Below are positions 1 to 28,210 of a DNA stretch of 64,000 nt, in pieces. The notes under the pieces are model-generated. The model searched no databases. It was not told the origin of the DNA and was given only the letters and a program-made list of their open reading frames with translations. The DNA comes from Rhodothermus bifroesti (GTDB taxonomy: Bacteria; Bacteroidota; Rhodothermia; Rhodothermales; Rhodothermaceae): assembly GCF_017908595.1 (NCBI RefSeq), contig NZ_JAGKTL010000005.1, positions 186,001-250,000 on the forward strand, read 5' to 3'. The position numbers and the translations under genes are program-made. Position 1 is the stretch's first letter; every line of letters begins with the position of its first letter.

Positions 1-2
1 CA

Positions 3-68
3 AACGCGGACTTCTTCACCTTCTTCAATCCGCGGCGCGTGTTCTTCGGTATTCGGGTCTCGTTCTAA
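3..68 (+). CDS. C-terminus of a TonB-dependent receptor (5' end outside window)
   Basis: Only the last 21 residues and a TAA stop at 66-68 are present. The frame ends in FFNPRRVFFGIRVSF, which closely matches the last residues of the complete TonB receptor at 12829-16092 (FLNPRDVYFGVRITF), a typical terminal beta-strand ending in an aromatic residue for outer-membrane barrel insertion. The following gene starts 15 bases later and is a paralog of the gene that follows the complete receptor, so this fragment is taken as the receptor of module A. The call rests on the short match plus conserved gene order. Confidence 0.75.
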   Translation, partial: NADFFTFFNPRRVFFGIRVSF

Positions 69-83
69 CAAGAAAGTAAAAGG

Positions 84-2321
84 ATGAGGATATCTATGAT
101 TGCAACCCACAAAACGGCAAGTTTAGGGCGTTGCGTGGGAGCCTTGTTGCTCCTGCTGATCTTCAGCGACATCGCGCAAGCCCAGTGGAGCGGTCGCTGG
201 CTTGCCATTGGCCGGCTACAATCCCACTACTTAGGGGGTGGCTCAGAGCCAGAAAGTATGGCTGGTATTGATGGTACCGGCACGTATACCTGGCCAGGCC
301 ACCACATTGGTGCCTACTGGGGCCACTGGCGAGGACTGTGGGTGAGCGCTAAAAATTGGCGTTCGCCTGATGGACAGACGTTCCCCGTGCGCATTGAGCA
401 TATCGGTCCTCGCTTTAACGGGGTAGGAGAGGTGTTTCAAGATGTGATTAAATTGGTCTACAAATTTGAGCAGCCAGAAATTGTGGTTGATGGCCTTCGC
501 ACTTTTGATAAACCTGCTATACCTGACGAAATTGATCCTTCGCTCAAAGCCGATGCCATGGTATACAATAAAACACGTAATGCCATGGGCATCGAGATGG
601 AGCGCAAAGTATATCAATTCAGTAACGAAATCCATCAGGATTATCACATTATCGAATATGTATTTACCAATACCGGCAATGTAGACGAAGACGACGAGAT
701 TGAACTGCCTAACCAAACCCTGCAAGACGTTTACTTCACGTTCTTCTATCGCAACAAAGCCAATGCGCCAGCGGGTGCATGGGATAACAGTGGGGGTGGA
801 GCAGCCTGGGGACAGTTTACGATGAATGATGCGCTGGTGCCGGGCTTTCAAGAATATGGGCAGTCGTTTGCCCAACGCCATGCTGCGCAGTTTTCCTGGT
901 TGGGACATGTGCCGGCGCAGACCGTGTTCAACACCATTGGTAACCCCATGTGGTTTGAACTGCAGCCCTGGATTGCCCATATCGGGGGTGACACTACAGG
1001 GCGCTTAGGCGCAGCTGCCATGTTCGGTACGTTGACTATCCATGCGGATCAGTCGGCAACCAACAAGACCCATGATCCCAGCCAGCCCCGGATGATGACG
1101 CGGCTAGACTCGGACGATGCCGAGCTAACAGCGCGTAATGACCACAACGACCTCAGCGTCATGCAGCTGGAACGCAACTGGCTTGAGGATGGCAATAAGG
1201 TGGCCAGTGATCCAGCCAATGCCCGCTATAACCCCAACAACCCCACGCATGCGTATATCATCCAGCCAGACGGTCGCTTCCATCTGCAAACTTCTGATCC
1301 TTCGCAAGGCCGTCCAGGCGGATGGGGCTATGTCCAAAGCTTTGGCCCGTACACGCTTCAGCCCAACCAGAGCATCCGCATTGTTGTGGCCGAAGGCATC
1401 GCAGGCCTAAGCGACAAGCTTAGCTTTATGCTGGGCAAGTGGTATAAGAACAAAGTTCGGGCAGAAGGGCAGGCTGCTGCTAACGCGGCACGCTTCAGCT
1501 GGAATCCAGTGACGGATAGTCCCTGCCAGGAGGGAAGCCCAGGCTGCGTTAGCCTGACCAAGAATGAGTGGGTGATGACTGCCCGCGACTCACTCTTCCA
1601 GCTCTTCCAGCGGATCCTCAACGTATGGGAGAACAACTTGGACATCCCACAGCCACCTAAACCGCCACGTCGGTTCGTGGTGACCTCAGGCACCGATCGC
1701 ATTACGCTGGAATGGGAGACCTATAGCGGCGAGCCGGATCCACCTGGAGGCTGGGAAATCTGGCGTGCCCAAAGCTTCTACTTTGGTATCCCCCTGCCCG
1801 ATAGCTCTACGGTTTACCAACGGATCGCAACGCTGCCTGGCAATGCGCGCTCGTACGTCGATGAAAACGTGACGCGCGGGGTCAACTACTACTACTACAT
1901 CCAGGCGGTGGGCAATGAAGTCGACGATCCAACCGCAGGTCGCCGCGTGCGCCTCAAGAGCAACCGGTACTGGACGCAAACCTACCAGCCGGCTGTGTTG
2001 CGGCGGCCGCCAGGAAGGTCGTTGGATGAAGTGCGCGTAGTCCCCAACCCCTACAACCTGGAGGCAGACTTGGGCGTCCGCTTCCCTGACCTGCAAGACA
2101 AGATCGCCTTCTACGGCCTACCTGCTCGGGCAACGATCCGGATCTACACAGAGCTAGGCGAGCTGGTCAAGGTGATCGAACACACTGACGGAAGCGGTGA
2201 CGAGTTCTGGGACCTGACTACCTCGTCGCGTCAGGTGGTGGCTAGCGGCATCTACTTTGCCGTCATCACCGACGCAGATACCGGCGCCCAGACCACGCGC
2301 ACCATTGTCATCATCCGTTGA
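84..2321 (+). CDS. Secreted FN3 / T9SS-sorting-domain-like protein, module A
   Basis: The 745-residue product has a signal peptide (hydrophobic core near residues 18-30, likely cleavage after A33 in AQA|Q). A long unrecognised region follows, then a fibronectin type III-like domain at about 523-640, and a C-terminal domain from about 650 beginning VRVVPNPYN. That domain has the FlgD-Ig/T9SS type A pattern: IYTELGELV, a WDL strand, SGIYFAVI and a terminal IVIIR. It is paralogous to the product of 16122-18392, sharing the mature start (WSGRW / WNMRW, then a GGG..PE motif) and the segment KNEWVMTARDSLFQL. It lies between a TonB receptor and a PorV-like gene, so it is probably exported to the cell surface. 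The SD-like AAAAGG lies just before the ATG. The molecular function is unknown. Confidence 0.85.
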   Translation: MRISMIATHKTASLGRCVGALLLLLIFSDIAQAQWSGRWLAIGRLQSHYLGGGSEPESMAGIDGTGTYTWPGHHIGAYWGHWRGLWVSAKNWRSPDGQTFPVRIEHIGPRFNGVGEVFQDVIKLVYKFEQPEIVVDGLRTFDKPAIPDEIDPSLKADAMVYNKTRNAMGIEMERKVYQFSNEIHQDYHIIEYVFTNTGNVDEDDEIELPNQTLQDVYFTFFYRNKANAPAGAWDNSGGGAAWGQFTMNDALVPGFQEYGQSFAQRHAAQFSWLGHVPAQTVFNTIGNPMWFELQPWIAHIGGDTTGRLGAAAMFGTLTIHADQSATNKTHDPSQPRMMTRLDSDDAELTARNDHNDLSVMQLERNWLEDGNKVASDPANARYNPNNPTHAYIIQPDGRFHLQTSDPSQGRPGGWGYVQSFGPYTLQPNQSIRIVVAEGIAGLSDKLSFMLGKWYKNKVRAEGQAAANAARFSWNPVTDSPCQEGSPGCVSLTKNEWVMTARDSLFQLFQRILNVWENNLDIPQPPKPPRRFVVTSGTDRITLEWETYSGEPDPPGGWEIWRAQSFYFGIPLPDSSTVYQRIATLPGNARSYVDENVTRGVNYYYYIQAVGNEVDDPTAGRRVRLKSNRYWTQTYQPAVLRRPPGRSLDEVRVVPNPYNLEADLGVRFPDLQDKIAFYGLPARATIRIYTELGELVKVIEHTDGSGDEFWDLTTSSRQVVASGIYFAVITDADTGAQTTRTIVIIR

Positions 2322-2333
2322 TTTCTTGGGATA

Positions 2334-3392
2334 ATGATCACGCAAACGTTGCCGATGACCATGAAACGCAGCTATATCGGGACCAGCCTCTTGCTATTGG
2401 GCTGGCTGGTTTTCCCGGCCTTACTCTACGCTCAGGGTACAGGAACGGGGACCGAGCTGGAAACCAAAAAGCTGGCCCAAACCGGGTTTAAGTTCCTTAG
2501 CGTATCCGTAGACCCCAGGGCAGCCGCAATGGCCGATGCCCTCACGGCCCGCGATAACGCTTCATCACTGGCCCTTTTCTATAACCCGGCCAGCATGGCT
2601 TACTTCGATCGCACGTTCCACTTTGCAGCTGGACAAACGCGCTGGATTAACAGCACCGACTATAATTTCGCCAGCCTGGCCTATCGCCCCATGGGCGGCC
2701 AGTTTGGCGTGATCGGGCTCAGCGTGGTAGCCGTAAGCTATCCGGAGGTGCTCCGGACTATCTTCGCTAACAACGAACAGGGCTACCTGGACCAGGGCAC
2801 GTATAGCCCCAGCGCATTAGCGATCGGATTGGGCTATGCGCGTGCGATCACCGACCGCTTTGCCGTTGGCGGACATGCAAAGTTTGCCCGCCAAAACCTG
2901 GGTGAGGCCCAAGTTACCCAAGGCGGTCGCATGGAAAGCTACGCGAAGTCGACGATCGCTGTAGACTTTGGCGTGCTCTACCGGACAGCGCTGCAAAGCC
3001 TAACCTTTGCGATGAGCGTGCGAAACTTCTCGCGCGAGCTAACCTATGTGGAGGAAAGCTTTGAGCTGCCACTGGCCTTCCAAATTGGGGCTACCTATAA
3101 CCTCATGGATCTGCTCGCGCCGGCCAACAGCACGCATACGCTTTGGCTTAGCGTCGATGCTGTCCGGCCCCGCGACTACCCTGAGCAAATTAAGGTAGGC
3201 ATGGAATATGGTTTCATGGACCTGCTATTCTTGCGGGCCGGCTACATCACACCTACCGATGAACAAGGGATCAACGTGGGTGCCGGTTTGCGCTTAGGGT
3301 CAGAAAGCTTTCGCATTGGGGTCGATTATGCCTACACCTCGTTTGGCATCTTCGACAACGTCCATCGACTAGGCTTACAGCTGGCCTTCTAA
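2334..3392 (+). CDS. PorV/PorQ-family outer-membrane beta-barrel protein, module A
   Basis: The family (UPF0164-like, FadL-type barrels) includes PorV, the T9SS shuttle protein that carries cargo to the attachment complex. The hallmark N-terminus is present: KKLAQTGFKFLSVSVDPRAA, then a NPASMA motif. The rest is alternating beta-strand sequence ending in LGLQLAF. A signal peptide is read from the internal Met at 2361 (MKRSYIGTSLLLLGWL...YAQ), so 2361 is a better start than 2334; no convincing SD separates the choices. It follows the cargo gene by 12 bases and a paralog occupies the same place in module B. A dedicated cargo-PorV pair is inferred. Barrel family confidence is high; the shuttle role is inferred. 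Confidence 0.88.
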   Translation: MITQTLPMTMKRSYIGTSLLLLGWLVFPALLYAQGTGTGTELETKKLAQTGFKFLSVSVDPRAAAMADALTARDNASSLALFYNPASMAYFDRTFHFAAGQTRWINSTDYNFASLAYRPMGGQFGVIGLSVVAVSYPEVLRTIFANNEQGYLDQGTYSPSALAIGLGYARAITDRFAVGGHAKFARQNLGEAQVTQGGRMESYAKSTIAVDFGVLYRTALQSLTFAMSVRNFSRELTYVEESFELPLAFQIGATYNLMDLLAPANSTHTLWLSVDAVRPRDYPEQIKVGMEYGFMDLLFLRAGYITPTDEQGINVGAGLRLGSESFRIGVDYAYTSFGIFDNVHRLGLQLAF

Positions 3393-3415
3393 AGCAGAAG
3401 AGCGCGAAAAGAATG

Positions 3416-3450
3416 CAGAGCCCCGACCGGTACGGCCGGTCGGGGCTCTG
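3416..3450 (+). terminator. Perfect GC-rich hairpin after the PorV gene
   Basis: A 15-base stem (arms 3416-3430 and 3436-3450, starting CAGAGCCCC and ending GGGGCTCTG) with a five-base loop lies 24 bases after the PorV stop. No T-run follows, so it may stabilise the upstream mRNA or attenuate rather than fully terminate. The next gene begins 28 bases downstream. Confidence 0.65.
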
Positions 3451-3478
3451 ATGTGTCAACAGCAGTGGGAAGAGCAAG

Positions 3479-4762
3479 GTGTTGCGCATACGTCTTTGGA
3501 TTGGCTTAAGTCTACTGATCTTTACCGGCTGCCGGCCAACAGCGCCGGAGGCTTACCGTCCGCCCTCGGAACGCGTGCTGACCGCAGCACAGGCAGCACG
3601 GCTGCATCAGGCCTGGCAAGCTTATGCTCAAGGGGCCTACCAACATGCCATGCAGCTTGCCGATAGCTTGCTGCAAGAAGGTGCTGAAATCGCGGAGGTT
3701 TATTTACTCAAAGGCCGCATTTACCTGGACATCAATGCATTTGAAGAAGCCTTAACCCACCTCGAAAAAGCCCGGGCTTTAGATGCTTACCTGCGGGGAA
3801 TCGATTTCCAAATCGGACACGCGGCGTTTCTTCAAGGGTTCTATCGCCGCGCACTCGCTTACTACTTAAAAGAGCTCGCTTTGATTGAACAGTCCCCTAC
3901 AGAAGTGCAGCGTTACTACGCCGAAACAGACCGCATCGCTAAGGTAGCCATTTATCGACAAGCTGGACGTGCCTGTTTTTTGCTCGATAGCTTGCAGGCA
4001 GCCCGCCAGTTCTATCACCGCGCCTTGGAACTGGATTCCCTAGACAGCGAAAGTTACCGATGGCTGGCTGAACTAGAAGAACAAGAAGGGAACCTTCAAA
4101 CCGCGTTGCAGCTTGCCGAAAAAGCACTCGCCCTGAATCCTAAAGAGCTGGAAAACCTGTATACCTTCGCTCGTTTGCTGCTGCGCACGGGACACACCGA
4201 AGACGCAGTGCATTTTTTGCAGCTGGTTTTGGAACGCCACCCCTTGCACCGGGGCGCAAACTACAACTTGGGCCGCGCCTTGATGTTACGAGGAGAGACG
4301 CGTGCAGGGGAATTCTACCTGGCGCGAGCCCAGCGGATTCAACAGCTCACAGGGAAGATCGATCAAGCCCGATTAGCAGCCTATCAGACCGGAGACGTAC
4401 GCCACTGGAAAGAGCTAGCCACTTTGTTGATTGAAGCTGGAAGATACGTAGAGGCCCGTCGTGCTTTGGATGTTGTGCTGTTTTTGGAGCCGCATAACCT
4501 GGCTCTCGAAAATGACCGTGCAAATTTAGCCCTCCTGCTGGGCGACACGCTAGATGCCCTTGCGCGCTATCAGCAGCTTCTACGTCGCGACCCTACGCTT
4601 GCTGATGTTTGGCTCAATCTAGGCGTTGTCTATGCCCAGCAGAAACAGTACGAAGCAGCCCGCAAGGCCTGGCAACAAGCCTTGCGCTACCGTCCCGATG
4701 ATGATACCTTACGGCAGTATCTGCAGCTGCTGGACCGTCGTATGCACTCGGAAGGGTCTTAA
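3479..4762 (+). CDS. TPR-repeat lipoprotein, module A
   Basis: The 427-residue product begins at a GTG and has a short lipoprotein signal with lipobox IFTGC, so it should be lipid-anchored in the envelope. The rest is tandem tetratricopeptide helices, for example the repeat around GDTLDALARYQQLLRRDPTLADVWLNLGV (shown here only as a landmark near residues 355-380). The C-terminal pattern W.NLG..YA......A..AWQ.AL..P is shared with the TPR lipoproteins at 9261, 21253 and 22548. TPR lipoproteins next to TonB receptors are reminiscent of SusD, which is itself TPR-like, but no SusD signature was recognised. Probable role: a protein-protein scaffold or ligand-binding partner on the outer membrane. 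The start is fixed by the lipobox and lack of an in-frame ATG upstream. Confidence 0.82.
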   Translation: MLRIRLWIGLSLLIFTGCRPTAPEAYRPPSERVLTAAQAARLHQAWQAYAQGAYQHAMQLADSLLQEGAEIAEVYLLKGRIYLDINAFEEALTHLEKARALDAYLRGIDFQIGHAAFLQGFYRRALAYYLKELALIEQSPTEVQRYYAETDRIAKVAIYRQAGRACFLLDSLQAARQFYHRALELDSLDSESYRWLAELEEQEGNLQTALQLAEKALALNPKELENLYTFARLLLRTGHTEDAVHFLQLVLERHPLHRGANYNLGRALMLRGETRAGEFYLARAQRIQQLTGKIDQARLAAYQTGDVRHWKELATLLIEAGRYVEARRALDVVLFLEPHNLALENDRANLALLLGDTLDALARYQQLLRRDPTLADVWLNLGVVYAQQKQYEAARKAWQQALRYRPDDDTLRQYLQLLDRRMHSEGS

Positions 4763-4776
4763 TCTGTCTTGCGGCT

Positions 4777-7491
4777 ATGTCTCGTCGTAAACGTCTGTTT
4801 TATCTCCCCGATAAGCAGCGCCGTTGGGTGAGCGTTTTGCTTGGCGGCTTTCTGGTGATGCTTCTCAACAGCCTTGTGCTGATTCTTTTCGATCGCTCCA
4901 GCGCGCTGGTTTATATGAGTAACGTGCTCTTGCACGTAGGCCTGGGGCTGTTGCTTAGTGTGCCTTTTGTGATTTTCCTTGCGGCCCACCTGCGTACCAT
5001 GCCGATCCGCTGGAACCTACGGGCTACGGCGGCGGGGGGCTTTACGGCGCTGTCGATAACCTTGCTTTTAGGCAGTGGTATTTTACTCTTTTTTGGGGGC
5101 TCTACCGTGGCCCAGGGCTGGGTGCTGACGCTGCATGTCGTCACCGCAGCCACTTCGGTGTTGGGTTTTGCCCTACATGTTTCCCTCAAACGAGGACAGC
5201 GTTACCGCTTTTTGCTCCTAGAAGGCCTGTCCCAGCGAGCCCAACTTTTGCGGCATCCACTCGCGCTTACTTTAGGCGCCGGTCTGGTGGTTTCGGTGGC
5301 TTTTTTCGCTGTACCCTGGCTTAAGCGTCCGCAACCAGTATATGTACAAACTGGCGAAGACAATCCGCTGCGGTCTTCCCAAGCGCTGCTAGCACACGAA
5401 GGCTTTTTAAAAGAAGCCGCGCTTTCGGGCTCAAAAACCTGCGGTCAAGCAGGTTGCCATCCCGACATTTACGCCCAGTGGGAAGCTTCAGCACATCGTT
5501 TTGCATCGTTCAATAACCCTTACTACCGCCGTTCCATCGAATACATGCTCGAGCGGCGGCCGGTAGAGGCTGCCCGTTGGTGCGCCTCTTGCCACGATCC
5601 GGTAGTACTTTTTTCGGGCCGTTTCGGCCACCGTATGCCCCTGGATACCACGCACTGGACAGCCCATGAGGGCCTTACCTGCCTCGCTTGCCACGCGATC
5701 ACGGGTTTACGCGATTTGCGTGGCAACGGGCGTTATGTGATTGCTGAACCCGATGAATATCCGTTTGCTCGCAGCACTACGGCTCTAGGTCAATGGCTAC
5801 ACCGCCAGCTTATTTTGGCTCGCCCTGAGCCACACCGGCAAGCTATGCTGCGACCGGTACACCGTACGGAGCAGTTCTGCAGCGCCTGCCATAAGGTAGG
5901 CTTGCCGCCCGACGTGAATTACTACCGCTGGATTCGGGGACAAAATGAATACGATGCCTGGCAGATGAGTGGCGTTTCGGGCAATACCGTGCGCTCGTTC
6001 TACCTGCCGTCCCGGCCGCGCACGTGCATCGATTGTCACATGCCACTGGTGCCCTCCAATGACCAAGGCAACGATGGCGGATTTGTCCGCAGCCATCGTT
6101 TCCTTGCGGCCAACACTGCGCTTCCATTTCTTAAAGGGCATGATGAGCAACTGCATGCAACGCAGGCTTTTTTGCAAGACTCGATCGCAACCGTCGACCT
6201 GTTTCTCGTACGCGTCAACGGTCGCACCTATGGCCCCAATCAACCCATGCCTGTGCTGCAGCCCGGCGATCAGGTGGAACTGACGGTGGTCGTGCGCAAC
6301 CGCAAAGTCGGCCATGCCCTCCCTGGAGGGACCAACGATTCCAATGAGCTTTGGCTAGAAGTGGTTGGACGCAATAGCCAGGGACACGTGGTACTGGCCT
6401 CTGGTTTGCTCGATGCTGAAGGCCGTGTTGATTCAACAGCCCACTTTTTCGGTGCTGTTTTTGTCGATCGCGCCGGTCAAGAGGCCAACAAACGCAACCC
6501 ACATGACTTTCGCACGCCCGTTTACGTGAACGTTATCGGTCCTGGCACCGCCCGCACGGTTCACTATCGCTTTACCATACCCCAAGCGCAGCCGGTTACC
6601 GAGTTGGCCGTGGCCTTCAACCACCGCAAATTCAAATGGTACTTCCATAACTGGACGTTTCGGGGACAGGTAGCTCCTGGAGAAGCGGATTCGCTGGCTA
6701 CACCTGAGGTCGACTACCGCCGCTGGATCTTGGCCGAAGATCGGCAAGCGCCGGCACTACCTATTACAACAATCGCTACAGCCCGACGCGTGGCCGGCAA
6801 ACCCCCCGAAAGCAACACCCCGCTCTGGGAGCGCTGGAATGATTATGGCATCGGTCTTTTCCTTGAAGGCAACAACCGTCGTGCCTTGGAAGCCTTTGAG
6901 CAGGTAAGCTTGCTGGCTCCAGAAAGCCCCGAAGGACCGATCAACCTAGCACGCGTCCTGATTGCCGAAGGGCAATTGGACCGTGCAGCAGAAGCTTTGG
7001 CTGAAGCAGAGCGCCGACGTCCAGGATACCTTAAAACAGCCTACTTCCGCGGGCAAATCCATCAGCGCCGTGGTGAATACGACCAGGCCCTGGCCGAATG
7101 GATGAAGGTCCAAGAACACTATCCTTTGGACCGTATCCTTTTGCAAGAAATTGGACGTGTGCATTACCTCTCGGGGCGCTATGAGGAAGCGTTGCGCTGG
7201 TTCGACCGTATTTTAGCTATCGATCCCGAAGACTTAGGTGGCCTCTATAACCGCATGTTGGCTCTAGGTGCGCTGGGTCGCACCGAAGAATTCCTTGCGG
7301 CCAAGGCGCGTTATGAGTATCATAAGGTGGACGAGGAGGCCTCAGCCTGGAGTACCCCCTACAAACACCGTCATCCCATGGTCAACCGTGAGGCTCAGGC
7401 CATCCATGAGCATGAGCTGCACCCCGTGCTGCCTCAGCCGCAACTAACCCGACAACCTGCTGTAGCTTGGCAATCTCCTGCTTCAAAATAA
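4777..7491 (+). CDS. Fused membrane / pentaheme cytochrome c / TPR protein
   Basis: The 904-residue product has three parts. Residues 1-190 hold about five membrane helices, two of which carry paired histidines (HVGLG...AAH and HVVTAATSVLGFALH), as in bis-His heme b proteins. The periplasmic middle part carries c-type heme motifs at about residues 222 (CGQAGCH, a CX4CH spacing), 269 (CASCH), 302 (CLACH), 368 (CSACH) and 417 (CIDCH), resembling the cytochrome c554/c' family, followed by a beta-rich region with GHALPGG near 510. The C-terminal part, from about 685, is TPR repeats. It is unique to module A. Likely function: passing electrons from the quinone pool or periplasmic donors through hemes to a partner or substrate. 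The heme motifs are seen directly; heme b binding and direction of electron flow are inference. Confidence 0.85.
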   Translation: MSRRKRLFYLPDKQRRWVSVLLGGFLVMLLNSLVLILFDRSSALVYMSNVLLHVGLGLLLSVPFVIFLAAHLRTMPIRWNLRATAAGGFTALSITLLLGSGILLFFGGSTVAQGWVLTLHVVTAATSVLGFALHVSLKRGQRYRFLLLEGLSQRAQLLRHPLALTLGAGLVVSVAFFAVPWLKRPQPVYVQTGEDNPLRSSQALLAHEGFLKEAALSGSKTCGQAGCHPDIYAQWEASAHRFASFNNPYYRRSIEYMLERRPVEAARWCASCHDPVVLFSGRFGHRMPLDTTHWTAHEGLTCLACHAITGLRDLRGNGRYVIAEPDEYPFARSTTALGQWLHRQLILARPEPHRQAMLRPVHRTEQFCSACHKVGLPPDVNYYRWIRGQNEYDAWQMSGVSGNTVRSFYLPSRPRTCIDCHMPLVPSNDQGNDGGFVRSHRFLAANTALPFLKGHDEQLHATQAFLQDSIATVDLFLVRVNGRTYGPNQPMPVLQPGDQVELTVVVRNRKVGHALPGGTNDSNELWLEVVGRNSQGHVVLASGLLDAEGRVDSTAHFFGAVFVDRAGQEANKRNPHDFRTPVYVNVIGPGTARTVHYRFTIPQAQPVTELAVAFNHRKFKWYFHNWTFRGQVAPGEADSLATPEVDYRRWILAEDRQAPALPITTIATARRVAGKPPESNTPLWERWNDYGIGLFLEGNNRRALEAFEQVSLLAPESPEGPINLARVLIAEGQLDRAAEALAEAERRRPGYLKTAYFRGQIHQRRGEYDQALAEWMKVQEHYPLDRILLQEIGRVHYLSGRYEEALRWFDRILAIDPEDLGGLYNRMLALGALGRTEEFLAAKARYEYHKVDEEASAWSTPYKHRHPMVNREAQAIHEHELHPVLPQPQLTRQPAVAWQSPASK

Positions 7492-7494
7492 GCT

Positions 7495-9240: not shown

Positions 9241-9260
9241 ACCCTAATCTAGCATAGAGG

Positions 9261-12703: not shown

Positions 12704-12813
12704 AAATTGCCCTTTTGTGAATAAAGCGTGAAGTAATTGAGGGGAATAGGAAGCGGTTTGGGTGCTCTTGTCTCTTCATTAAGAACGCACAAAAAGTGCC
12801 TTTCAACCCAGCC

Positions 12814-12819
12814 GGAGGT
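12814..12819 (+). promoter_or_regulatory. Shine-Dalgarno GGAGGT deciding the TonB receptor start
   Basis: GGAGGT lies nine bases before the ATG at 12829 and abuts the ATG at 12820. It favours 12829 over the upstream GTG at 12796 as the start. Strong SD sites are uncommon among the neighbouring genes. Confidence 0.6.
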
Positions 12820-12828
12820 ATGTTTGCA

Positions 12829-16092: not shown

Positions 16093-16121
16093 ACCCGCTG
16101 ACGCGATCTTGGAAGTTTGCT

Positions 16122-18392
16122 ATGAAAACGTTACAGAAACGCGCAATGAAGGGGCTACGAAACGCTTTTTTAGCGCTGCTTGTCAGTGCGATAGGCATAC
16201 CCCAGGCCTGGGCACAATGGAACATGCGTTGGTTGTCGGTAGGGGACTTTCAGCACCGGTATGTGGGTGGGGGCGCCCAACCTGAAACCTACGATGAGGT
16301 CATGTTCCAATGGCCCGGCATCCGTCCCCAGGTGTCCTACATGCACGGTCAGGCCTTATGGGTCAGTGTAAAGAACTTTACCGATGAAAAGGGCACGCAA
16401 TTCCCCGTACGCGTCTCGCATATTGGCCCCCGTACGGAAGGCATTGGGGAGTTCTTTGAGCGTGACCTCAAGCTTGTGGGAAGCTTTGAAGCCCCACAGG
16501 TGCTGGTCGATGGGGTCGAGTCGTTCCGGCGTCCAGCTCCCCTAGACGAAGTGGACCCTGAGCTCAAGGCCGATCGCATGGTGTACAACGAGGTGAATAC
16601 CTCGGTGGGCATTACCATGCAGGTGCGCGCTTATCAGCTCAGCAACGAATTCCATGACGACTACCACATTGTAGAATATACGTTCGTCAATACCGGCAAC
16701 GTCGATGACGACGACGAAGTCGAGCTGCCGAATCAGCAGCTGGAGGACGTATACTTCACCTTTGTTCGACGTCCGAAAATCAATGCTCCCGCGGGTTCCT
16801 GGGGCGGTAGCGCCAATGCTACTGCCTGGGGCGGCTATGTGATGACCGATGCCGTGGGGGATGGATACCAAGATTACGGTCTGGATGCAAGCTGGCGCGG
16901 ACATTTCTCCTGGCTAGGCTACATTCCGGAGCAAGCCCGCTTCAATACCATCGGTAACCCCATGTGGGAAAACTCGGTCGGGTGGTGGTACACGCTCAAT
17001 GTGGATACCATCGGTCGACTGGGTGGCGCAGCTATGGTAGGGACTTTTGTGCTGCATGCCGATGGCACACCCCATACAGGAGCAGTGCTTCCAGACGACC
17101 CAACCCAGCCGCGCGTGATGACTTATCTGGACTCGGACGATGGAGACCTGACGGGTAGCAACAACCACAATAACGTTCCCGGAATGCAGCTGGAACGGCA
17201 GTGGATCGAGCAAGGAGCGCCAGCGCGCAGCTATAGTACTACCGGCTGCACATGGACAGGCATTCGGACGATTCCCTCACAGGCTTTCTGCGCCTGGCCG
17301 CCGCCAGATCCTAATACGCCGGTCGATTTTGTTCGGCATTTCGCTGCGCAGAAGAGCGACCCGCGCATCGGGTACAACAGCTGGAGCTACGCCTATGGCT
17401 TTGGTCCCTTTGACATGGCTCCAGGACAAATGTACCGCGTCGTGCTGGTAGAAGGTGTGGCTGGTCTCAGTGACGAGCTGAGTCTCCAGCTTGGGCGCTG
17501 GTACAAACGCCAGGTACTTTCACGCGGCGTAGAGGCAGCCGACGCAGCCATTTTCTGGTGGGATCCAAAACGCAACCAAACCTGCGAAGAAGGGGAGGAA
17601 GGCTGCATTGGCATGACCAAAAACGAATGGGTGATGACCGCGCGCGACTCGCTCTTCCAGTTGGTGGAGCGTGCTAAGGCGGTCTATGCAGCTGGGTTCA
17701 ACGTCATCCGTCCACCGTTGCCACCACGCCGCTTTGAGGTTACCTCGGGCGTAGACCGCATCACCATCACGTGGGAACCCTATCCAGGCGAGTTGCCCCC
17801 AGGGGGCTGGGAGCTCTACCGAGCCCAGAACCGCTTTGATGGGATTCCGGCTCCAGACGACCGCACGCGCTACCAACTGATTGCAAGACTGCCCGCTAAT
17901 GTAACCCGCTATGAAGATACCGATGTGGCCCGCGGCGTAGCCTACTACTACTACCTGCAGGCTGTAGGCAATCCTACGCCGGTTGACCCCATGGCCATTA
18001 ACGGCACACCCGATGGGCGTCCCTTGCGGAGCAGTCGTTACTATACGCAAACCTATGATCCAGCTATCCTGAAGCGGCCCCCGGGTGAAACGATCGCTAA
18101 AGCCCGCATTGTGCCCAATCCCTACATCATCGCTGCGGACCAAGACCTGCGCTGGCCCGACCAGCAAGACAAGATCGGCTTCCTGGATATCCCAGGCCAG
18201 TGCACCATTGAGATTTATACCGAGCTCGGCGAGCTCGTAAAGCGGATCGAGCACACCGACGGTAGCGGAGATGAGTATTGGGATCTGACCACCGATGCCC
18301 GACAGGTGATTTCCAGCGGGATCTATATCGCGGTCATTAAAGACCACACCACAGGTCAACAGCTCATCCGCAAGTTTGTCGTGATTCGATGA
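16122..18392 (+). CDS. Secreted FN3 / T9SS-sorting-domain-like protein, module B
   Basis: This 756-residue paralog of 84-2321 has a signal peptide (LLVSAIGIPQAWA|Q), the shared unrecognised large N-region, the KNEWVMTARDSLFQL segment, a fibronectin III-like domain from about 530, and a C-terminal sorting-type domain from about 661 (ARIVPNPYI, IYTELGELV, WDL, SGIYIAVI, FVVIR). An internal Met at 16146 is an alternative start and gives a shorter signal. It lies 29 bases after the receptor stop and before a PorV-like gene, so receptor, cargo and shuttle probably form one transcription unit. The T9SS route is inferred from the C-terminal pattern and PorV neighbour; the core T9SS genes are not in this window. 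Confidence 0.85.
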   Translation: MKTLQKRAMKGLRNAFLALLVSAIGIPQAWAQWNMRWLSVGDFQHRYVGGGAQPETYDEVMFQWPGIRPQVSYMHGQALWVSVKNFTDEKGTQFPVRVSHIGPRTEGIGEFFERDLKLVGSFEAPQVLVDGVESFRRPAPLDEVDPELKADRMVYNEVNTSVGITMQVRAYQLSNEFHDDYHIVEYTFVNTGNVDDDDEVELPNQQLEDVYFTFVRRPKINAPAGSWGGSANATAWGGYVMTDAVGDGYQDYGLDASWRGHFSWLGYIPEQARFNTIGNPMWENSVGWWYTLNVDTIGRLGGAAMVGTFVLHADGTPHTGAVLPDDPTQPRVMTYLDSDDGDLTGSNNHNNVPGMQLERQWIEQGAPARSYSTTGCTWTGIRTIPSQAFCAWPPPDPNTPVDFVRHFAAQKSDPRIGYNSWSYAYGFGPFDMAPGQMYRVVLVEGVAGLSDELSLQLGRWYKRQVLSRGVEAADAAIFWWDPKRNQTCEEGEEGCIGMTKNEWVMTARDSLFQLVERAKAVYAAGFNVIRPPLPPRRFEVTSGVDRITITWEPYPGELPPGGWELYRAQNRFDGIPAPDDRTRYQLIARLPANVTRYEDTDVARGVAYYYYLQAVGNPTPVDPMAINGTPDGRPLRSSRYYTQTYDPAILKRPPGETIAKARIVPNPYIIAADQDLRWPDQQDKIGFLDIPGQCTIEIYTELGELVKRIEHTDGSGDEYWDLTTDARQVISSGIYIAVIKDHTTGQQLIRKFVVIR

Positions 18393-18401
18393 GCCAACCC
18401 T

Positions 18402-18430
18402 GGTGTGCGGGCCCCCAGGGCCCGCACACC
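18402..18430 (+). terminator. Perfect hairpin between cargo and PorV genes, module B
   Basis: A 13-base stem (arms 18402-18414 and 18418-18430, GGTGTGCGGGCCC and its complement) with a three-base loop starts 10 bases after the cargo stop. No T-run follows. Its place inside the gene set suggests attenuation or mRNA stabilisation rather than full termination. Confidence 0.6.
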
Positions 18431-18482
18431 CCTAACGCCGCTAGCGCTGTTGTTTCAAGTGTAAACCTACAGACGACTTCCC

Positions 18483-19535
18483 ATGAAAACACATGTACTA
18501 CGCTGGGGATGGGGCCTATTTCTGATCCTGTTCTGGATGGGGTCCCCTGCTTACGCGCAGCCCTTAGGCGAAGGAGGGTTCCAGCAGGCAAAACGTGAAA
18601 AACGCGCTCAAACAGGCCTGAAATTTTTGAGCATGTCGCTGGATCCCAGGCTCTCGGCTATGGGAGGAGCCGCCACAGCCCAAAATCTAGGCAACTCCTT
18701 GGCGCTCCTATATAACCCAGCCACGATGGCGCACATGGCCGACCGTCTCCACCTTGCGGTCATGCAAACGCAATGGATCGCCGACATCCGTTACAATGGC
18801 GGGACGCTCGCCTTTAGTCCACGTGGCGGCATCTATGGGGTTTGGGGGGTGTCGGTAACCGCCGTGGACTACGGCGAGTTTATCGGGACCATCCGGGCAG
18901 ATAACGAAAGTGGCTATGAAGACACGTTCAACTTCAGTCCTACCGCGCTGGCCATCGGCGTAGGTTATGCCCGAGCCTTAACCGACCGCTTTGCCGTCGG
19001 CGGCCAGGTGAAGTACGTCAATCAAGATCTGGGCAGCTTCCCGGTCGCTTTCGGTGACGGTGGAGACCTGGTGCACAAAGACTACCGTAAAAGCACAGTA
19101 GCCTTTGACTTCGGCGTCATCTATCAAACGGGCTTCCGAAGCCTAACGTTTGCCGTTAGCGCCCGTAACTTTTCGCGTGAGCTTAAGTACGAACGCGAAA
19201 ACTTTGAACCGCCGCTTACCTTCCGCATTGGCGTAGCCATGAACCTGCTCGACCTGACTAACCAAGATCCTAATATGCACCGGCTTCTGGTAGCCGTAGA
19301 TGCCGAGCGCCCGCGCGACTTCGACGAACGACTGCACATTGGCGCTGAATATCTGCTGCTCAACACACTGGCCCTGCGGGCTGGCTATGCCTACCCCTCG
19401 GACGTGGAAGGCGCTAGTCTGGGCGTAGGCGTGCGGCAACGCTTTGGCTCGGTGAACTTTGCTTTCGATTACGCCTACACCGTCTTTGAAACCTTCAGCA
19501 ACGTCAACCGCCTAGGTATCCAAATTTCCTTTTAG
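18483..19535 (+). CDS. PorV/PorQ-family outer-membrane beta-barrel protein, module B
   Basis: The 350-residue product has a signal (WGLFLILFWMG...YAQ) and the family N-terminus KREKRAQTGLKFLSMSLDPR followed by YNPATMA. The rest is alternating amphipathic strands and a terminal aromatic strand (LGIQISF). It aligns along its length with the module A copy, including FAVGGQVKYVNQDLG versus FAVGGHAKFARQNLG and NFSREL in both. A role in moving the adjacent cargo protein to the surface by T9SS is inferred from PorV; PorQ-like or fatty-acid-transport-like roles remain possible. Confidence 0.88.
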   Translation: MKTHVLRWGWGLFLILFWMGSPAYAQPLGEGGFQQAKREKRAQTGLKFLSMSLDPRLSAMGGAATAQNLGNSLALLYNPATMAHMADRLHLAVMQTQWIADIRYNGGTLAFSPRGGIYGVWGVSVTAVDYGEFIGTIRADNESGYEDTFNFSPTALAIGVGYARALTDRFAVGGQVKYVNQDLGSFPVAFGDGGDLVHKDYRKSTVAFDFGVIYQTGFRSLTFAVSARNFSRELKYERENFEPPLTFRIGVAMNLLDLTNQDPNMHRLLVAVDAERPRDFDERLHIGAEYLLLNTLALRAGYAYPSDVEGASLGVGVRQRFGSVNFAFDYAYTVFETFSNVNRLGIQISF

Positions 19536-19566
19536 GTAGCGTAAACTATAGCATTAGAGCCTTGTA

Positions 19567-19606
19567 AACTCGGTCTGCCCTTTTTAGGTGCAGACCGAGT
19601 TTTTTC
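19567..19606 (+). terminator. Rho-independent terminator after PorV gene, module B
   Basis: A 12-base stem (arms 19567-19578 and 19590-19601, AACTCGGTCTGC and its complement) with an 11-base loop is followed by a T-run. It ends the receptor-cargo-PorV unit and separates it from the FG-GAP/TPR genes that start at 19625. Confidence 0.88.
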
Positions 19607-19624
19607 CTTTGTACCAAAGGAGTC

Positions 19625-21340
19625 ATGGCAAAGCAGCTGGGATGTTATCTAGGCCTCTGGGGGATCCTCCTTGTTGGATGGGGATGTCACGCTCCTGAAC
19701 CAGCAACCGATGTCGATACACCGCTTTTTGAAGAAGTCACCTCTGAAGCCGGCCTGGCTGATTTTCGCCACCAAACCGGTGCATTCGGCAAAAAATGGAT
19801 GCCGGAAAGCCTTGGCGGAGGGGGCGGATTTGTAGACATCGATGGGGACGGCTGGTCCGACATTGTGCTGGTCACCGGTGCCCACTGGCCTGGCCACGGG
19901 CCTGCATTGCCTGCCCTGACCGTGTATCGCAACCGGGGCGACGGCACATTTGAAAACTGGACCGAGAAAACAGGGCTGGATCGCTATACAGCCTATGGGA
20001 TGGGACTCGCAGCGGCTGACTACGATAACGATGGCGATATGGACCTTTTCCTTACAGCCCTAGGGCCAAACCTGCTTTTTCGGAATGAAGGAGGACGGTT
20101 TATCGAAGTCAGCCGTGAGGCCGGATTACCCCGCGATGCGCAATGGAGCACTGCAGCGATTTTTTTGGACGCCGATCGAGATGGATGGCTGGATCTCTTC
20201 TACGGAAACTATGTGGACTGGACCCCAGAGACCGATTTGTTTTGCTCAACTGATGGGGTACATAAAGATTATTGCACGCCACGTCAGTACCCAGGGGTGT
20301 CGGGACGCTTTTTCCGCAACAACGGCAACGGCACCTTCACTGAGCAAACCCACAAAGCCGGCTTTGCTGCCATGCCTGGCAAAACACTTGGCGTTGCCGA
20401 GCTGGACGTAAATCGCGACGGCTGGCCCGATCTTGTCGTGGCCAACGACACGCAACGCAACCTGCTTTTTATCAACAATGGCGATGGGACCTTTACCGAG
20501 CAAGGCCTTGCCGCTGGTATTGCCTTTGACGCCAATGGTCGCGCTCGAGCAGGCATGGGGATCGATGTAGGGTTTATCGGCACAACGGCTACACCGGTCA
20601 TTGCGATTGGTAATTTTTCCAACGAAATGGTCGCTTTTTTTCAGTACGTTGATCAAGGGGTTTTTATTGATCGGGCCCCACAGGTTGGACTGGGCTCTTC
20701 GACCCTGCTGAGCTTAACATTTGGACTGTTTTTCTTTGATGCGGATCTGGACGGAAGACTCGACCTCTTGCTCTGCAATGGCCATATCCAGGAAACGATC
20801 GAACAGGTACAGGATGGCGTAACCTTTCGGCAACGTCCTCAGCTTTTTATGCAGCGTGCGGAGGGTATTTTTGAAGCATGGCCACCCCAAGGACCACTAG
20901 CACAACCGCTTTTGGGGCGCGGGGCTGCCTATGCCGACTATGATCGCGATGGCGATCTCGATGTGCTGCTCATTGAAAATGGTGGCCCGGTACATTTGTG
21001 GCGTAACCGGGTAAACCCAGGAAGTCCTGGAGCGCCTTATAGCGTGCAGCTTGAGTTGCAGGGAACGCGCAGTAACCGCAACGCTCTAGGCACACACCTA
21101 ATCCTCTACGCAAATGGCCAGCGACAAGAGCGCCGTGTCCATGGAGGGAGCAGCTATCTTTCTCAGCATGAATATCGCCTAACAGTTGGTTTAGGCTCAG
21201 CCCGGCAAATTGACTCGCTGTTTGTGCTATGGCCTAGCGGCCAAATTGACCGATGGGTACAACTACCGGCGCAAAGTGCATGGCGCGTAATCGAAGCCAA
21301 AGGCCTCGAGCCGCTTCCGCTTCCTGGAAGCAAACGATAA
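19625..21340 (+). CDS. FG-GAP/VCBS-repeat, ASPIC/UnbV (CRTAC1-like) lipoprotein, module B
   Basis: The 571-residue paralog of 7495-9240 has lipobox VGWGC, repeated calcium loops (DIDGDGWSD, DYDNDGDMD, DADRDGWLD, DYDRDGDLD), the FRNNGNGTFTEQ motif and a C-terminal ASPIC/UnbV domain (HGGSSYLSQHEYRLTVGLG). Early segments are strikingly alike in the two paralogs: ADFRHQTGAFGKKWMPES here and GAFRHETGAFGQKWFPES in module A. An SD-like AAAGGAG lies just before the ATG. It begins a second unit after the terminator at 19606. Surface or extracellular protein of unknown ligand. Confidence 0.87.
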   Translation: MAKQLGCYLGLWGILLVGWGCHAPEPATDVDTPLFEEVTSEAGLADFRHQTGAFGKKWMPESLGGGGGFVDIDGDGWSDIVLVTGAHWPGHGPALPALTVYRNRGDGTFENWTEKTGLDRYTAYGMGLAAADYDNDGDMDLFLTALGPNLLFRNEGGRFIEVSREAGLPRDAQWSTAAIFLDADRDGWLDLFYGNYVDWTPETDLFCSTDGVHKDYCTPRQYPGVSGRFFRNNGNGTFTEQTHKAGFAAMPGKTLGVAELDVNRDGWPDLVVANDTQRNLLFINNGDGTFTEQGLAAGIAFDANGRARAGMGIDVGFIGTTATPVIAIGNFSNEMVAFFQYVDQGVFIDRAPQVGLGSSTLLSLTFGLFFFDADLDGRLDLLLCNGHIQETIEQVQDGVTFRQRPQLFMQRAEGIFEAWPPQGPLAQPLLGRGAAYADYDRDGDLDVLLIENGGPVHLWRNRVNPGSPGAPYSVQLELQGTRSNRNALGTHLILYANGQRQERRVHGGSSYLSQHEYRLTVGLGSARQIDSLFVLWPSGQIDRWVQLPAQSAWRVIEAKGLEPLPLPGSKR

Positions 21341-22542
21341 GGCTGGGTGTTGCTGCAGCATTCCTGCTAAGCAGTTGTTACCCGGAGCCTGCTTCGCGGC
21401 CGGAGCTGCCTCCACCAGCACAAGTCTATCTGGCCCGCCTGCAACAGGCGCTGGCAACGCAGTCCTATGCCCTGGTATGGGCGCTGGCAGATAGCATTGC
21501 CCAATATGCTCCTGAATGGCCTGATGTGCATTTTGCACGTGGGCTGGTCTATATGCAACAGCGTCGCCACGAAGAAGCCGAAGCCGCTTTTCGCCGCGTA
21601 CTGGCGGTGCAACCCGATTACGCAGGCGCTTGGTTTAATCTGGGGCAAAACGCTGCACTGGCCCGAAAATACCGCGAAGCCCTGCACTACTACCGACAAG
21701 AGCTGGCGTTGGCACGTAAAGTAACCGTAGACCCACGCGCGCTTGCCGCCATCTATGCCCAAATGGGACGCGCTTACGAGCGGTTAGCGCAAGACGACAG
21801 TGCGCGAAGTGCTTACGCCCAGGCGCTGACCATCGATAGCACGTTTGCCGAAGCCCACGACGGCCTGCGCCAAGTGCTCGAGCGCCAAGGACGTTATGCA
21901 GAAGCCCTAAAGCATGCTCAAAAAGCTTTGCTGCAGCACCCAGAGCATATCGCCTATCGCTACCACGTAGGCGCCCTATTGGTACAGTTGGGACGTTTTG
22001 CAGAAGCCCGACCGCTTCTGGAGGAAGTTGCACGCCGCTGGCCGGGACATGACGGTGCAGCCTATAACCTGGGCCGCGCTTTGATCGGTTTAGGACAAAC
22101 CGCTGAGGGCCAACGTTATCTGCAAAAAGCCGATTCGCTGCAGCGTGTAACCGAAACACTTCTTTTGGCACAGCGACGCGTTGAACTAAGTCCTCGCGAT
22201 CCCGAAGCTTGGTCCAATTATGCGCGCCAGCTTATGCAGGTCGGCTATCTAGAGGAGGCCTACAGAGCGCTACAGACAGCTTTGAGCTTAGCTCCAGGGA
22301 ATCTGGCCTTGCTGAGCAACTTAGCGCAGCTTTACCTGGCCATGGGCGATACCGCAAGTGCCTTAGCTGGCATGGAGCGCATCGTCAAAGCCGATACTAC
22401 CTTTGCCGAAGGCTGGTTCAACCTCGGCGTGCTCTACGCGATGACTGGCCGCCGAGAGGCTGCCCGCCGGGCCTGGCAGCGCACGCTGCAGCTGAACCCC
22501 TCCCACACGCTAGCCCAAACGTATTTGCGACAACTCCCCTGA
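21253..22542 (+). CDS. TPR-repeat lipoprotein, module B (first)
   Basis: The coding frame overlaps the end of the FG-GAP gene by up to 88 bases because the lipoprotein signal (RLGVAAAFLLSSC) is encoded right after that gene's stop. The usable ATGs are 21253 and 21280; 21280 gives a shorter basic n-region and is equally plausible. The remainder is TPR repeats with the shared C-terminal pattern WFNLGVLYAMTGRREAARRAW. Homologous to 3479, 9261 and 22548. The overlap implies coupling to the FG-GAP gene. An envelope scaffold role is inferred. Confidence 0.8.
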   Translation: MGTTTGAKCMARNRSQRPRAASASWKQTIRLGVAAAFLLSSCYPEPASRPELPPPAQVYLARLQQALATQSYALVWALADSIAQYAPEWPDVHFARGLVYMQQRRHEEAEAAFRRVLAVQPDYAGAWFNLGQNAALARKYREALHYYRQELALARKVTVDPRALAAIYAQMGRAYERLAQDDSARSAYAQALTIDSTFAEAHDGLRQVLERQGRYAEALKHAQKALLQHPEHIAYRYHVGALLVQLGRFAEARPLLEEVARRWPGHDGAAYNLGRALIGLGQTAEGQRYLQKADSLQRVTETLLLAQRRVELSPRDPEAWSNYARQLMQVGYLEEAYRALQTALSLAPGNLALLSNLAQLYLAMGDTASALAGMERIVKADTTFAEGWFNLGVLYAMTGRREAARRAWQRTLQLNPSHTLAQTYLRQLP

Positions 22543-22547
22543 GCGCA

Positions 22548-23747
22548 ATGAAACCCTGCTTTGCCCTACTCTGCCTGATCAGCCTCGCACTTGTCGCCTG
22601 CAACCAGCCAGGCGCAAAAGAGCGGCCGGTTCATAAGCGCGTGCAGTACTTTCTGCTCCGCGCCGAGGCAGCACTCGAGCGCTATGCTTTTGCCGAAGCA
22701 TTGGCTCTGGCAGACAGCGCTGCCCGATACGATCCGGACGAGCCAGCAATTGCGTTTTTGCGTGGACGGCTTTATGCTGAAATGGCCCAGTTTGCACAAG
22801 CCGAGGCTGCCTACCAGGAGGTGCTACGCCGCAATCCCCGCTTTAAAGGCGCTTGGCATAACCTGGCCAATCTTAAAGCACGGCAGCATCAATTCCGTGA
22901 AGCCATACGCTTGTACCATAATGAACTCAAACACCACCCCGGTGCGGCTTCCTGGCAAGCTATAGGACGGGCTTATCGTGAACTCGGCCAAGTAGACAGC
23001 GCTGCTTACGCCTATCAGCAAGCCTTAAGCCTAGACAGCAGCTACGTACCTGCGTATATCGGCATGGCCCAATTGCTGGACAATGAGGGCCGCTTTGAAG
23101 CGGCTTTACCCTATGCCGCAAAGGCGCAGCAACTCAGCCCAGCTAGCCCCGAGACGAATTATCTGCTGGGCGAGCTGCTGATGAAAAACGGACGGTTCGA
23201 AGAGGCCCTTCGGTATCTCCAACAAGCCGCGACGGCCTGGCCTTGGCATGCCGCAATCCAGTATAGCATAGGTCAGACGCTCTTACGATTGGGACAGCGC
23301 GCAGCTGGCGAAGCTGCCCTTCGGCGCGCAGAACAGCTCCGGCCACTGAATGCCCAACTGCAGATGATGGAAGAAGCCGTGCGAACCACACCCGGCAATC
23401 CCTACGCATTTGCTGCATTAGGATCTGTACTGCGCCGCTTGGGACGTTACGACGAAGCGCTGCGTGCCTACACCATCGCGCTCTTTCTTTCCCCGAACAA
23501 TCCTGAAATTTTGCACAACGTAGCTGCCCTGCACTTTGTGCAGGGCGATACGCTCACGGCCATAGCCACCTACCAGCAGGTGCTGGCCATCGACTCTACG
23601 TTTGCCGACGCTTGGCTGAATTTGGGCATTCTCTATGCTCTGCGCGGCGAACGCGAAGCCGCAAGGCATGCCTGGCAACAGGTGTTACGTTACGATCCAG
23701 AGCATCCAGCTGCACGTCGGTACCTAGCCCGCCTAGCGCGCCCTTAG
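22548..23747 (+). CDS. TPR-repeat lipoprotein, module B (second)
   Basis: The 399-residue product starts MKPCFALLCL with lipobox ALVAC, five bases after the previous stop. The frame is open further upstream to 22209, but that extension lies inside the previous TPR gene and has no signal peptide, so the start at 22548 is chosen. The sequence is TPR repeats most similar to 9261-10475 (WHNLANLKARQ, GRAYRELGQVDSAAYAYQQAL). It is the last gene of module B and is followed by a terminator at 23779-23804. Confidence 0.86.
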   Translation: MKPCFALLCLISLALVACNQPGAKERPVHKRVQYFLLRAEAALERYAFAEALALADSAARYDPDEPAIAFLRGRLYAEMAQFAQAEAAYQEVLRRNPRFKGAWHNLANLKARQHQFREAIRLYHNELKHHPGAASWQAIGRAYRELGQVDSAAYAYQQALSLDSSYVPAYIGMAQLLDNEGRFEAALPYAAKAQQLSPASPETNYLLGELLMKNGRFEEALRYLQQAATAWPWHAAIQYSIGQTLLRLGQRAAGEAALRRAEQLRPLNAQLQMMEEAVRTTPGNPYAFAALGSVLRRLGRYDEALRAYTIALFLSPNNPEILHNVAALHFVQGDTLTAIATYQQVLAIDSTFADAWLNLGILYALRGEREAARHAWQQVLRYDPEHPAARRYLARLARP

Positions 23748-23778: not shown

Positions 23779-23804
23779 AAGTCCCTATCTAGGGACTTGT
23801 TTTT
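23779..23804 (+). terminator. Rho-independent terminator closing module B
   Basis: A stem AAGTCCC(TA)/(TA)GGGACTT (arms 23779-23787 and 23790-23798) is followed by GTTTTT. It lies about 30 bases after the TPR gene and separates the envelope modules from the sugar locus. Confidence 0.82.
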
Positions 23805-25142: not shown

Positions 25143-25158
25143 TCCAAAAATCCATGCC

Positions 25159-26073: not shown

Positions 26074-26085
26074 ACCAAACCTCCA

Positions 26086-26796: not shown

Positions 26797-26799
26797 GCC

Positions 26800-28197: not shown

Positions 28198-28210
28198 ACG
28201 GACGTAAGCC

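Follow-up and report, generated by a model that had tools for sequence, protein, structure and literature searches.

Gene triads of a TonB-dependent receptor, an exported cargo and a PorV-family barrel as candidate SusD-independent importers in Rhodothermus bifroesti and relatives

A 64,000-nucleotide stretch of the Rhodothermus bifroesti genome (the window; positions 186001-250000 of contig C5 in the 2.88-Mb genome, negative positions lying upstream of it) begins with two sets of cell envelope genes arranged head to tail, module A (-3207..12703) and module B (12796..23747), all on the + strand. Both sets open with the same three genes, which encode a TonB-dependent receptor, a cargo protein carrying a putative sorting signal for the type IX secretion system (T9SS) and an outer-membrane barrel of the PorV family. 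Conservation of this triad across genomes suggests that the modules are probably members of a large class of outer-membrane importers that function without SusD and consist of a receptor, a T9SS-exported cargo and a PorV-family barrel dedicated to that cargo, apparently in place of the classical SusC/SusD sugar importer. The class was previously unnamed, and no description of triads of receptor, cargo with a C-terminal domain (CTD) and PorV was found in the literature searched, which did not extend to subscription journals and preprints. The triad genes of the two modules are the following.

-3207..68 (C5:182794-186068; 1..68 is the 3' end), + strand: module A TonB-dependent receptor, 1091 aa, with a carboxypeptidase-regulatory-like N-domain
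84..2321, + strand: module A cargo, with signal peptide (mature N-terminus Q), N-domain of ~490 aa, FN3 and C-terminal sorting domain with PorZ-like tail
2334..3392, + strand: module A PorV/PorQ-family outer-membrane barrel (NF033709)
12796..16092, + strand: module B TonB-dependent receptor, 1098 aa
16122..18392, + strand: module B cargo, with a C-terminal domain of the class of the module A cargo
18483..19535, + strand: module B PorV/PorQ-family barrel (NF033709)

Conservation of the triad

A preliminary description of the window had recognized two gene sets built from one-to-one paralogs, and comparison of the modules by blastp bore this out (receptor 52.7% identity over 1111 aa, cargo 51.1%, PorV-family barrel 50.0%, ASPIC protein 50.4%, first and second TPR proteins 36% and 43%); the domain assignments agreed with Pfam and NCBIfam. 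It had also placed the module A receptor in the window, where only the last codons of this gene lie, and had seen the same gene order twice. The latter holds for receptor, cargo and PorV, whereas the genes that follow are ordered differently: TPR, tetraheme-cytochrome/TPR, ASPIC, TPR and TPR/ASPIC in module A, and ASPIC, TPR, TPR in module B. The two modules are thus collinear only over the triad, with the ASPIC, TPR and cytochrome genes as a shuffled add-on.

The tandem arrangement, stressed in the preliminary description, is incidental, the triad being what matters. The paralogy of A and B is old: every one of the five genus members carries A, and three carry B as well. In the cargo tree, B's closest relatives outside the genus come from two other families within the order. 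A recent tandem duplication was rejected, because these nearest extra-generic relatives belong to other families and two genus members have A only.

A cargo was present in 76 of 394 genomes of the phylum (48 of 170 genera) in a survey that scored just the two best candidates per genome, and the cargo profile found relatives in metagenome-assembled genomes (MAGs) of Marinimicrobia, Calditrichia, Ignavibacteriales, Melioribacteraceae and Balneolaceae. Sixty in-phylum regions were fetched, and the neighbours of each cargo were scored on the cargo's own strand. In 66 of 69 cases the cargo gene was flanked by a receptor gene immediately 5' and a PorV-family gene immediately 3', three of the 66 having one extra gene before PorV. 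The 66 are made up of all 60 in-phylum regions, modules A and B, and four of the seven cargos of the other named MAGs (L038, L039, L041 and L042), with Marinimicrobia, Calditrichota and Ignavibacteria represented; the exceptions were two cargos on one Marinimicrobia contig (L040) and one in Balneolaceae (L043). Such conservation is well beyond chance. The paralogs are not scattered in relatives, and the proposed conserved unit of TonB transporter, T9SS-type cargo and PorV-type barrel is supported. In the Marinimicrobia region L038 nearly the entire module A was found (receptor, cargo, PorV, tetraheme cytochrome/TPR directly 3' of PorV, ASPIC, TPR), and the Calditrichia region L042 has receptor, cargo, PorV, ASPIC and TPR. 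As a separate observation, the two cargo copies of L040 stand side by side (L040:9706-14281), near proteins with twin-arginine-like N-termini.

The same association emerged when the search started from the barrels. At E <= 1e-15 the R. bifroesti genome yielded 13 matches to the PorV family, eight of which lie in triads (A, B, L025-L029 and L032). Among the remaining five, one comes after a receptor, a CTD protein lying farther upstream (L030), one is the housekeeping PorV adjoining PorU (L035), one is PorQ-like (L031; 214.6 bits, cut-off 220), one is a divergent PorV-family gene that directly follows the gene of a CTD protein with a PorZ-like tail, without a receptor (L034:6510-9112), and one lies outside all these groupings (L033). 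The L034 pair is possibly a free-standing cargo/barrel pair of the triad kind. In six other genomes, 40 PorV-family regions drawn from the highest-scoring matches listed, and so not at random, comprised 28 triads, five receptor-PorV dyads, five PorU-PorV pairs and two others. Non-core PorV paralogs thus followed a receptor in 33 of 35 cases (28 as full triads), for which the probability by chance is ~1e-44 on a generous baseline. Per genome, the ten searched members of the class to which the window belongs had 6-16 PorV-family genes; outside this class, counts in the phylum reached 18, as against 0-5 in many of its other families.

Export signal of the cargo and lineages of the barrel

The genome encodes a T9SS, with SprA (2428 bits), PorU (998 bits) and a true PorV (294 bits). 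The tails of the triad cargos scored 53-126 bits on a profile of triad CTDs and at most 25.5 on a type A profile, whereas for those of neighbouring enzymes the type A profile gave 106-137 bits and the triad profile no more than 22.5, with no overlap; cargos of the A/B family left out of profile building were among those scored. With the type A CTD models TIGR04183 and PF18962 the module A cargo reached 20 bits against a cut-off of 23 and the other triad cargos tested gave no match, and no NCBIfam CTD family scored above its cut-off for the triad cargos. Six of nine tested triad cargos (A, B, L025, L028, L041 and L042) matched PorZ over its final ~65-105 residues (7e-12 to 4e-3; 7.4e-12 for the module A cargo). 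The match was confined to the C-terminal ~100 aa, and the cut-off for full-length PorZ (260) was not reached by triad cargos. On these profiles the triad CTD is a separate class, with the PorZ tail as its nearest named match. PorZ retains its CTD and uses it to bind PorQ, and it has been suggested that cognate PorV-like barrels shield CTDs from cleavage (PMC10202324). Type A CTDs have been reported all to use PorV, and type B CTDs to use a cognate PorP/SprF protein (Paillat et al. 2025; PMC12618676); the triads fit neither scheme.

Both barrels passed the cut-off of the PorV/PorQ family model NF033709 (193.2 bits for A and 196.3 for B; cut-off 90) and failed those of the PorV equivalog NF033710 (79.5 and 71.6 bits; cut-off 250), the PorQ equivalog NF033711 (68.5 and 89.3 bits; cut-off 220) and the PorP/SprF model TIGR03519 (no match for A and 26.4 bits for B; cut-off 90.55). 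PorV paralogs grouped by cargo class and not by genome. In a tree of 52 PorV sequences from seven genomes the cargo class changed eight times, compared with a mean of 27.5 after shuffling (none of 200 shuffles was as low), whereas the 37 changes in genome of origin were no better than shuffled; the housekeeping PorVs formed a single clade with a support of 99. PorV lineages also tracked the enzymes encoded nearby: CBM20 at L029 and L160 and an alpha-amylase at L029 in the lineage L029/L142/L160, a Glycoamylase family protein at L026 and GH94 at L151 in L026/L139/L151, and CBM9 in L150/L158/L168, joined by GH16 at the last two loci. Among the eight triads of the R. bifroesti genome, distances of the three components were strongly correlated (receptor-cargo r = 0.96, receptor-PorV 0.95, cargo-PorV 0.93; permutation p <= 0.0004), and omission of the A-B pair hardly altered these values.

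Carbohydrate context and accessory genes

Sister triads in this genome adjoin enzymes of the starch, beta-glucan and xylan type. CBM20 and an alpha-amylase are near L029; genes for a LacI-like protein, CBM9, GH12 and GH10 near L025; LacI-like, CBM9, Glycoamylase family and GH3 genes near L026; and CBM4_9 and an ABC sugar-binding protein near L027 (LacI-like proteins were recognized by eye from their N-termini). Triads in other genomes had CBM9 with GH16-malectin, GH94 or CBM20 nearby. At L142 and L160, starch-lineage triads of two distant genomes, a PPIC-type rotamase gene was noticed directly 5' of the receptor. A comparable published case is the xylan locus of R. marinus, whose genes Rmar_1067-1073 are given as LacI, GH43, Xyn10A, TonB receptor, CTD hypothetical, hypothetical and CTD hypothetical (PMC6987092); Rmar_1072 is probably a PorV-family gene.

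Downstream of module B lie genes of the 3-keto-glycoside type.

23779..23798, + strand: terminator-like 8-bp perfect hairpin with T run in the gap between module B and the sugar genes; such sites overall occur at chance level
23880..29545, + strand: MFS permease, TIM-barrel protein, 3-keto-disaccharide hydrolase and two GFO/IDH/MocA oxidoreductases; linkage kept in other genus members

GMC oxidoreductases and ThuA are also among the neighbours of A and B, and the neighbourhood is at least partly kept in the genus. Two adjacent GMC oxidoreductase genes of the window (31021-32739 and 32754-34475) encode proteins with nearly identical ends, indicating a recent tandem duplication, and are followed by a gene similar to that of gluconate-2-dehydrogenase subunit 3; farther on, a 966-aa protein encoded on the - strand (40478-43378) is a fusion of GH3 with a beta-lactamase-family domain.

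The remaining genes of the modules are listed below; no Rfam or tRNA features were found within the window.

3479..4762, + strand: module A TPR lipoprotein 1, lipobox FTGC
4777..7491, + strand: tetraheme cytochrome c554-like protein with a membrane anchor and C-terminal TPRs (four CxxCH, Pfam PF13435)
7495..9240, + strand: module A FG-GAP/ASPIC (UnbV) lipoprotein, CRTAC1-like propeller (match to PDB 9etn, cartilage acidic protein 1, 7e-11)
9261..10475, + strand: module A TPR lipoprotein 2, paired above with module B TPR lipoprotein 2 (43%)
10472..12703, + strand: TPR and FG-GAP/ASPIC fusion with lipobox-like N-terminus
19625..21340, + strand: module B FG-GAP/ASPIC lipoprotein (Pfam/NCBIfam, paralog alignment)
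21280..22542, + strand: module B TPR lipoprotein 1, start corrected, overlapping the preceding ASPIC gene by 61 bp
22548..23747, + strand: module B TPR lipoprotein 2, start corrected (MKPCF...); the long open reading frame from 22209 is a mis-start

Because the gaps are small (at most 90 bp inside the modules, where some genes overlap, and 92 bp between A and B), the two modules could be a single transcription unit. The preliminary description had overlooked the cytochrome nature of the protein encoded at 4777-7491.

The cargo tree has two clades: 21 cargos have FG-GAP/ASPIC genes nearby, mostly together with TPR genes, and the other 45 have neither; this distinction requires a single change on the tree, with an SH-aLRT support of 100. 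The receptor tree shows the same single split (support 99), and the PorV tree two changes. In the first clade the FG-GAP/ASPIC lipoprotein is encoded by the fourth or a later gene, whereas the second-clade loci examined encode a lipoprotein with IPT/TIG and propeller at that position, as well as a CTD protein with a propeller, often accompanied by enzymes of the GHL10 or NAGPA-domain kind. A surface propeller lipoprotein thus recurs after the triads, but its family changes between the clades and it is not an invariant neighbour. The inclusion of FG-GAP/ASPIC propellers in the module, as first described, is accordingly valid for one clade and not for the other. ASPIC, TPR and cytochrome genes were considered as part of the core and rejected, the ASPIC context being that of one clade (21/66) with the cytochrome downstream in just some of its members.

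Several loci bear on these accessory genes. A cluster of cytochrome (four heme), ASPIC and TPR genes without receptor or PorV (L036:3283-7914; C2, ~493-498 kb) stands alone, and for this reason the three may be regarded as a portable submodule. At L119 and L121, from another family, two genes directly 5' of the receptor of an ASPIC-type triad encode proteins whose N-termini, by eye, resemble sodium/solute symporters. The second-clade triads L088, L098, L105 and L080 are flanked by GHL10-type CTD enzymes, in L098 also by a NAGPA (phosphodiester glycosidase) protein; their substrate may be a cell-wall-like glycan.

Proposed mechanism, alternatives and significance

In the mechanism that we envisage, Sec would carry the cargo across the inner membrane, and the cell's only T9SS, of the SprA/PorU type, would carry it across the outer membrane. 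The PorZ-like CTD of the cargo would not be recycled through the housekeeping PorV; instead, by analogy with PorZ and PorQ, the cargo would remain attached to the PorV-family barrel dedicated to it, and barrel and cargo would be placed beside or over the receptor. There the N-domain, acting as a capture protein or as a lid, would bind an oligosaccharide or glycoside and pass it to the receptor, which would import it with energy from TonB. The surface propeller lipoprotein (FG-GAP/ASPIC, or IPT/TIG with propeller in the sister clade) would be an accessory capture protein. Modules A and B may import a glycoside that is used by the products of the adjacent 3-keto-glycoside genes.

Several observations weigh against this model. 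The patristic correlation between cargo and PorV across species is just 0.61, five receptor-PorV dyads have no cargo directly beside the receptor, and the Marinimicrobia region L040 has cargo with neither receptor nor PorV nearby. No glycoside hydrolase is encoded inside modules A and B, and the terminator-like hairpin, by its position only suggestive, stands between module B and the 3-keto-glycoside genes. Confidence was low in the AF2 models of the whole cargo (mean pLDDT 55.6) and of its N-domain (50.5). Foldseek matched the former to FN3 repeats and the latter to GH94/GH65-type phosphorylases at TM 0.2-0.27, only a hint that the N-domain could be a beta-supersandwich of a sugar-binding-like type. 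Moreover, the cell has ordinary SusCD pairs, so that the triad is not a simple replacement of SusCD everywhere.

As for SusCD, the absence of SusD noted in the preliminary description is true of the modules, where no protein matched a SusD family in Pfam or NCBIfam, but not of the genome, which has five SusD-family matches and, in a set 6-17 kb upstream of the window, a classical SusC-SusD pair. This SusC scored 846.6 bits on the SusC/RagA model TIGR04056 and has the TIGR04057 signature, whereas the receptors of A and B matched TIGR04056 with the N-domain only (78.7 and 75.3 bits; cut-off 368) and lack the signature. The upstream set (-17322..-5834; L024:1679-13168) continues with two FG-GAP/ASPIC proteins of ~1100 aa, 49% identical to each other, and a related SusCD-ASPIC set is present at L037. 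That TPR lipoproteins stand in for SusD, as first proposed, is suggested by the TPR-like helices of SusD and by the presence of such lipoproteins in both modules; we consider it very improbable, given an hhalign probability of 0.2% for a relationship to SusD, the lack of a match to any SusD family, and the lack of a TPR match downstream in the 45 loci of the non-ASPIC clade, which have the same cargo family. It is the cargo that occupies the position of SusD beside the receptor. The cargo itself was also considered as a SusD relative and rejected by hhalign and Pfam.

A different explanation is that each barrel is no more than a shuttle specific for its cargo, which would be cleaved and attached elsewhere as a free surface glycan-binding protein, the proximity of the receptor gene reflecting co-regulation without a complex. 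In F. johnsoniae, type A cargo is carried by PorV, a shuttle that is recycled (PMC12618676), and many polysaccharide utilization loci (PULs) encode separate surface glycan-binding proteins. Yet a recyclable shuttle would not need a copy for each cargo, whereas a separate PorV lineage exists for each cargo class; receptor and cargo genes adjoin in 66 of the 69 cases, the distances of the receptors track those of the cargos, and the CTDs are not of type A. We regard this explanation as unlikely, but likelier than the other alternatives. The barrel might alternatively have no part in cargo display and serve as a second, FadL-like substrate channel that works alongside the receptor. PorV itself is a FadL-fold barrel, the triad barrels have weak Toluene_X/FadL matches in Pfam, and the dyads combine receptor and PorV without cargo between them. 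Against such a channel stand the NF033709 scores, more than twice the cut-off, the covariation of cargo class with PorV lineage, and the example of BamG, a FadL homologue that shows that barrels of this kind can hold a surface protein instead (PMC12578637); its probability seems low. We assign a similarly low probability to a role of A and B in surface redox or metal chemistry in place of sugar uptake, for which the tetraheme cytochrome of module A and L038, the calcium-binding propellers and the stand-alone cluster at L036 could be cited. Against this, module B and most sister loci have no cytochrome gene, sister triads sharing the core are found in glycan loci, and throughout the genus the module is flanked by MFS genes, in some cases together with genes of the 3-keto-glycoside type.

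The proposed importers resemble several known systems without coinciding with any of them. Like SusC/SusD importers, the triads combine a TonB-dependent receptor bearing an N-terminal carboxypeptidase-regulatory-like domain with a fixed adjacent gene for a surface protein; sister triads are accompanied by GH, CBM and LacI-like genes, whereas A and B themselves only adjoin a 3-keto-glycoside locus. Unlike in those importers, the receptor fails the SusC/RagA tests and its partner is not a lipoprotein but a T9SS-exported protein with a PorV-family barrel. With PorZ-PorQ they would share the retention of a CTD cargo by its cognate PorV-like barrel, known in the case of PorZ, whose tail the triad CTDs match best, but they lack a full-length PorZ match, fail the PorQ equivalog, are linked to TonB receptors and occur in many copies per genome. 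The pairs of type B CTD and PorP/SprF in F. johnsoniae likewise have the barrel gene directly 3' of the cargo, one per cargo and several pairs per genome; the triads differ in that the CTD is not of type B, the barrels belong to the PorV family and a receptor is present. In BtuB-BtuG a propeller lipoprotein other than SusD caps a TonB receptor as a lid (PMC10404256), and propeller lipoproteins occur in triad loci; however, BtuG is itself the lipid-anchored lid, whereas in the triads the invariant partner is the cargo-barrel pair. BamG offers a precedent for such a geometry: this FadL-type barrel, located beside another barrel, uses its extracellular loops to hold a surface protein (PMC12578637). 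The R. marinus xylan locus (Rmar_1067-1081) has the order of the triads, with its LacI, CTD enzymes, TonB receptor and series of CTD hypothetical, hypothetical and CTD hypothetical; these were published as hypothetical proteins, and the paper does not mention PorV or, in the text available, note the general pattern (PMC6987092).

PUL finders keyed on SusC/SusD pairs would miss these loci; the genome has ~9 receptor-PorV units compared with its five SusD matches. The genomic signature of receptor, distinct-CTD cargo and PorV paralog can be used to annotate glycan loci in Rhodothermia, Ignavibacteria and Marinimicrobia, and the PorV lineage perhaps predicts the substrate. For the T9SS, the triad CTDs constitute, besides type A with PorV and type B with PorP/SprF (PMC12618676), a third class of signal that can be told apart from the others and has PorV-family partners of its own. 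The chances seem to us about even that in the deep-branching Bacteroidota-like lineages Rhodothermia, Ignavibacteria, Calditrichota and Marinimicrobia this third pairing of T9SS cargo and barrel, in which a dedicated PorV paralog holds a PorZ-like C-terminal signal, builds an entire class of SusD-free TonB glycan importers, and that most PorV paralogs of these groups, instead of being general components of secretion, would be importer subunits.

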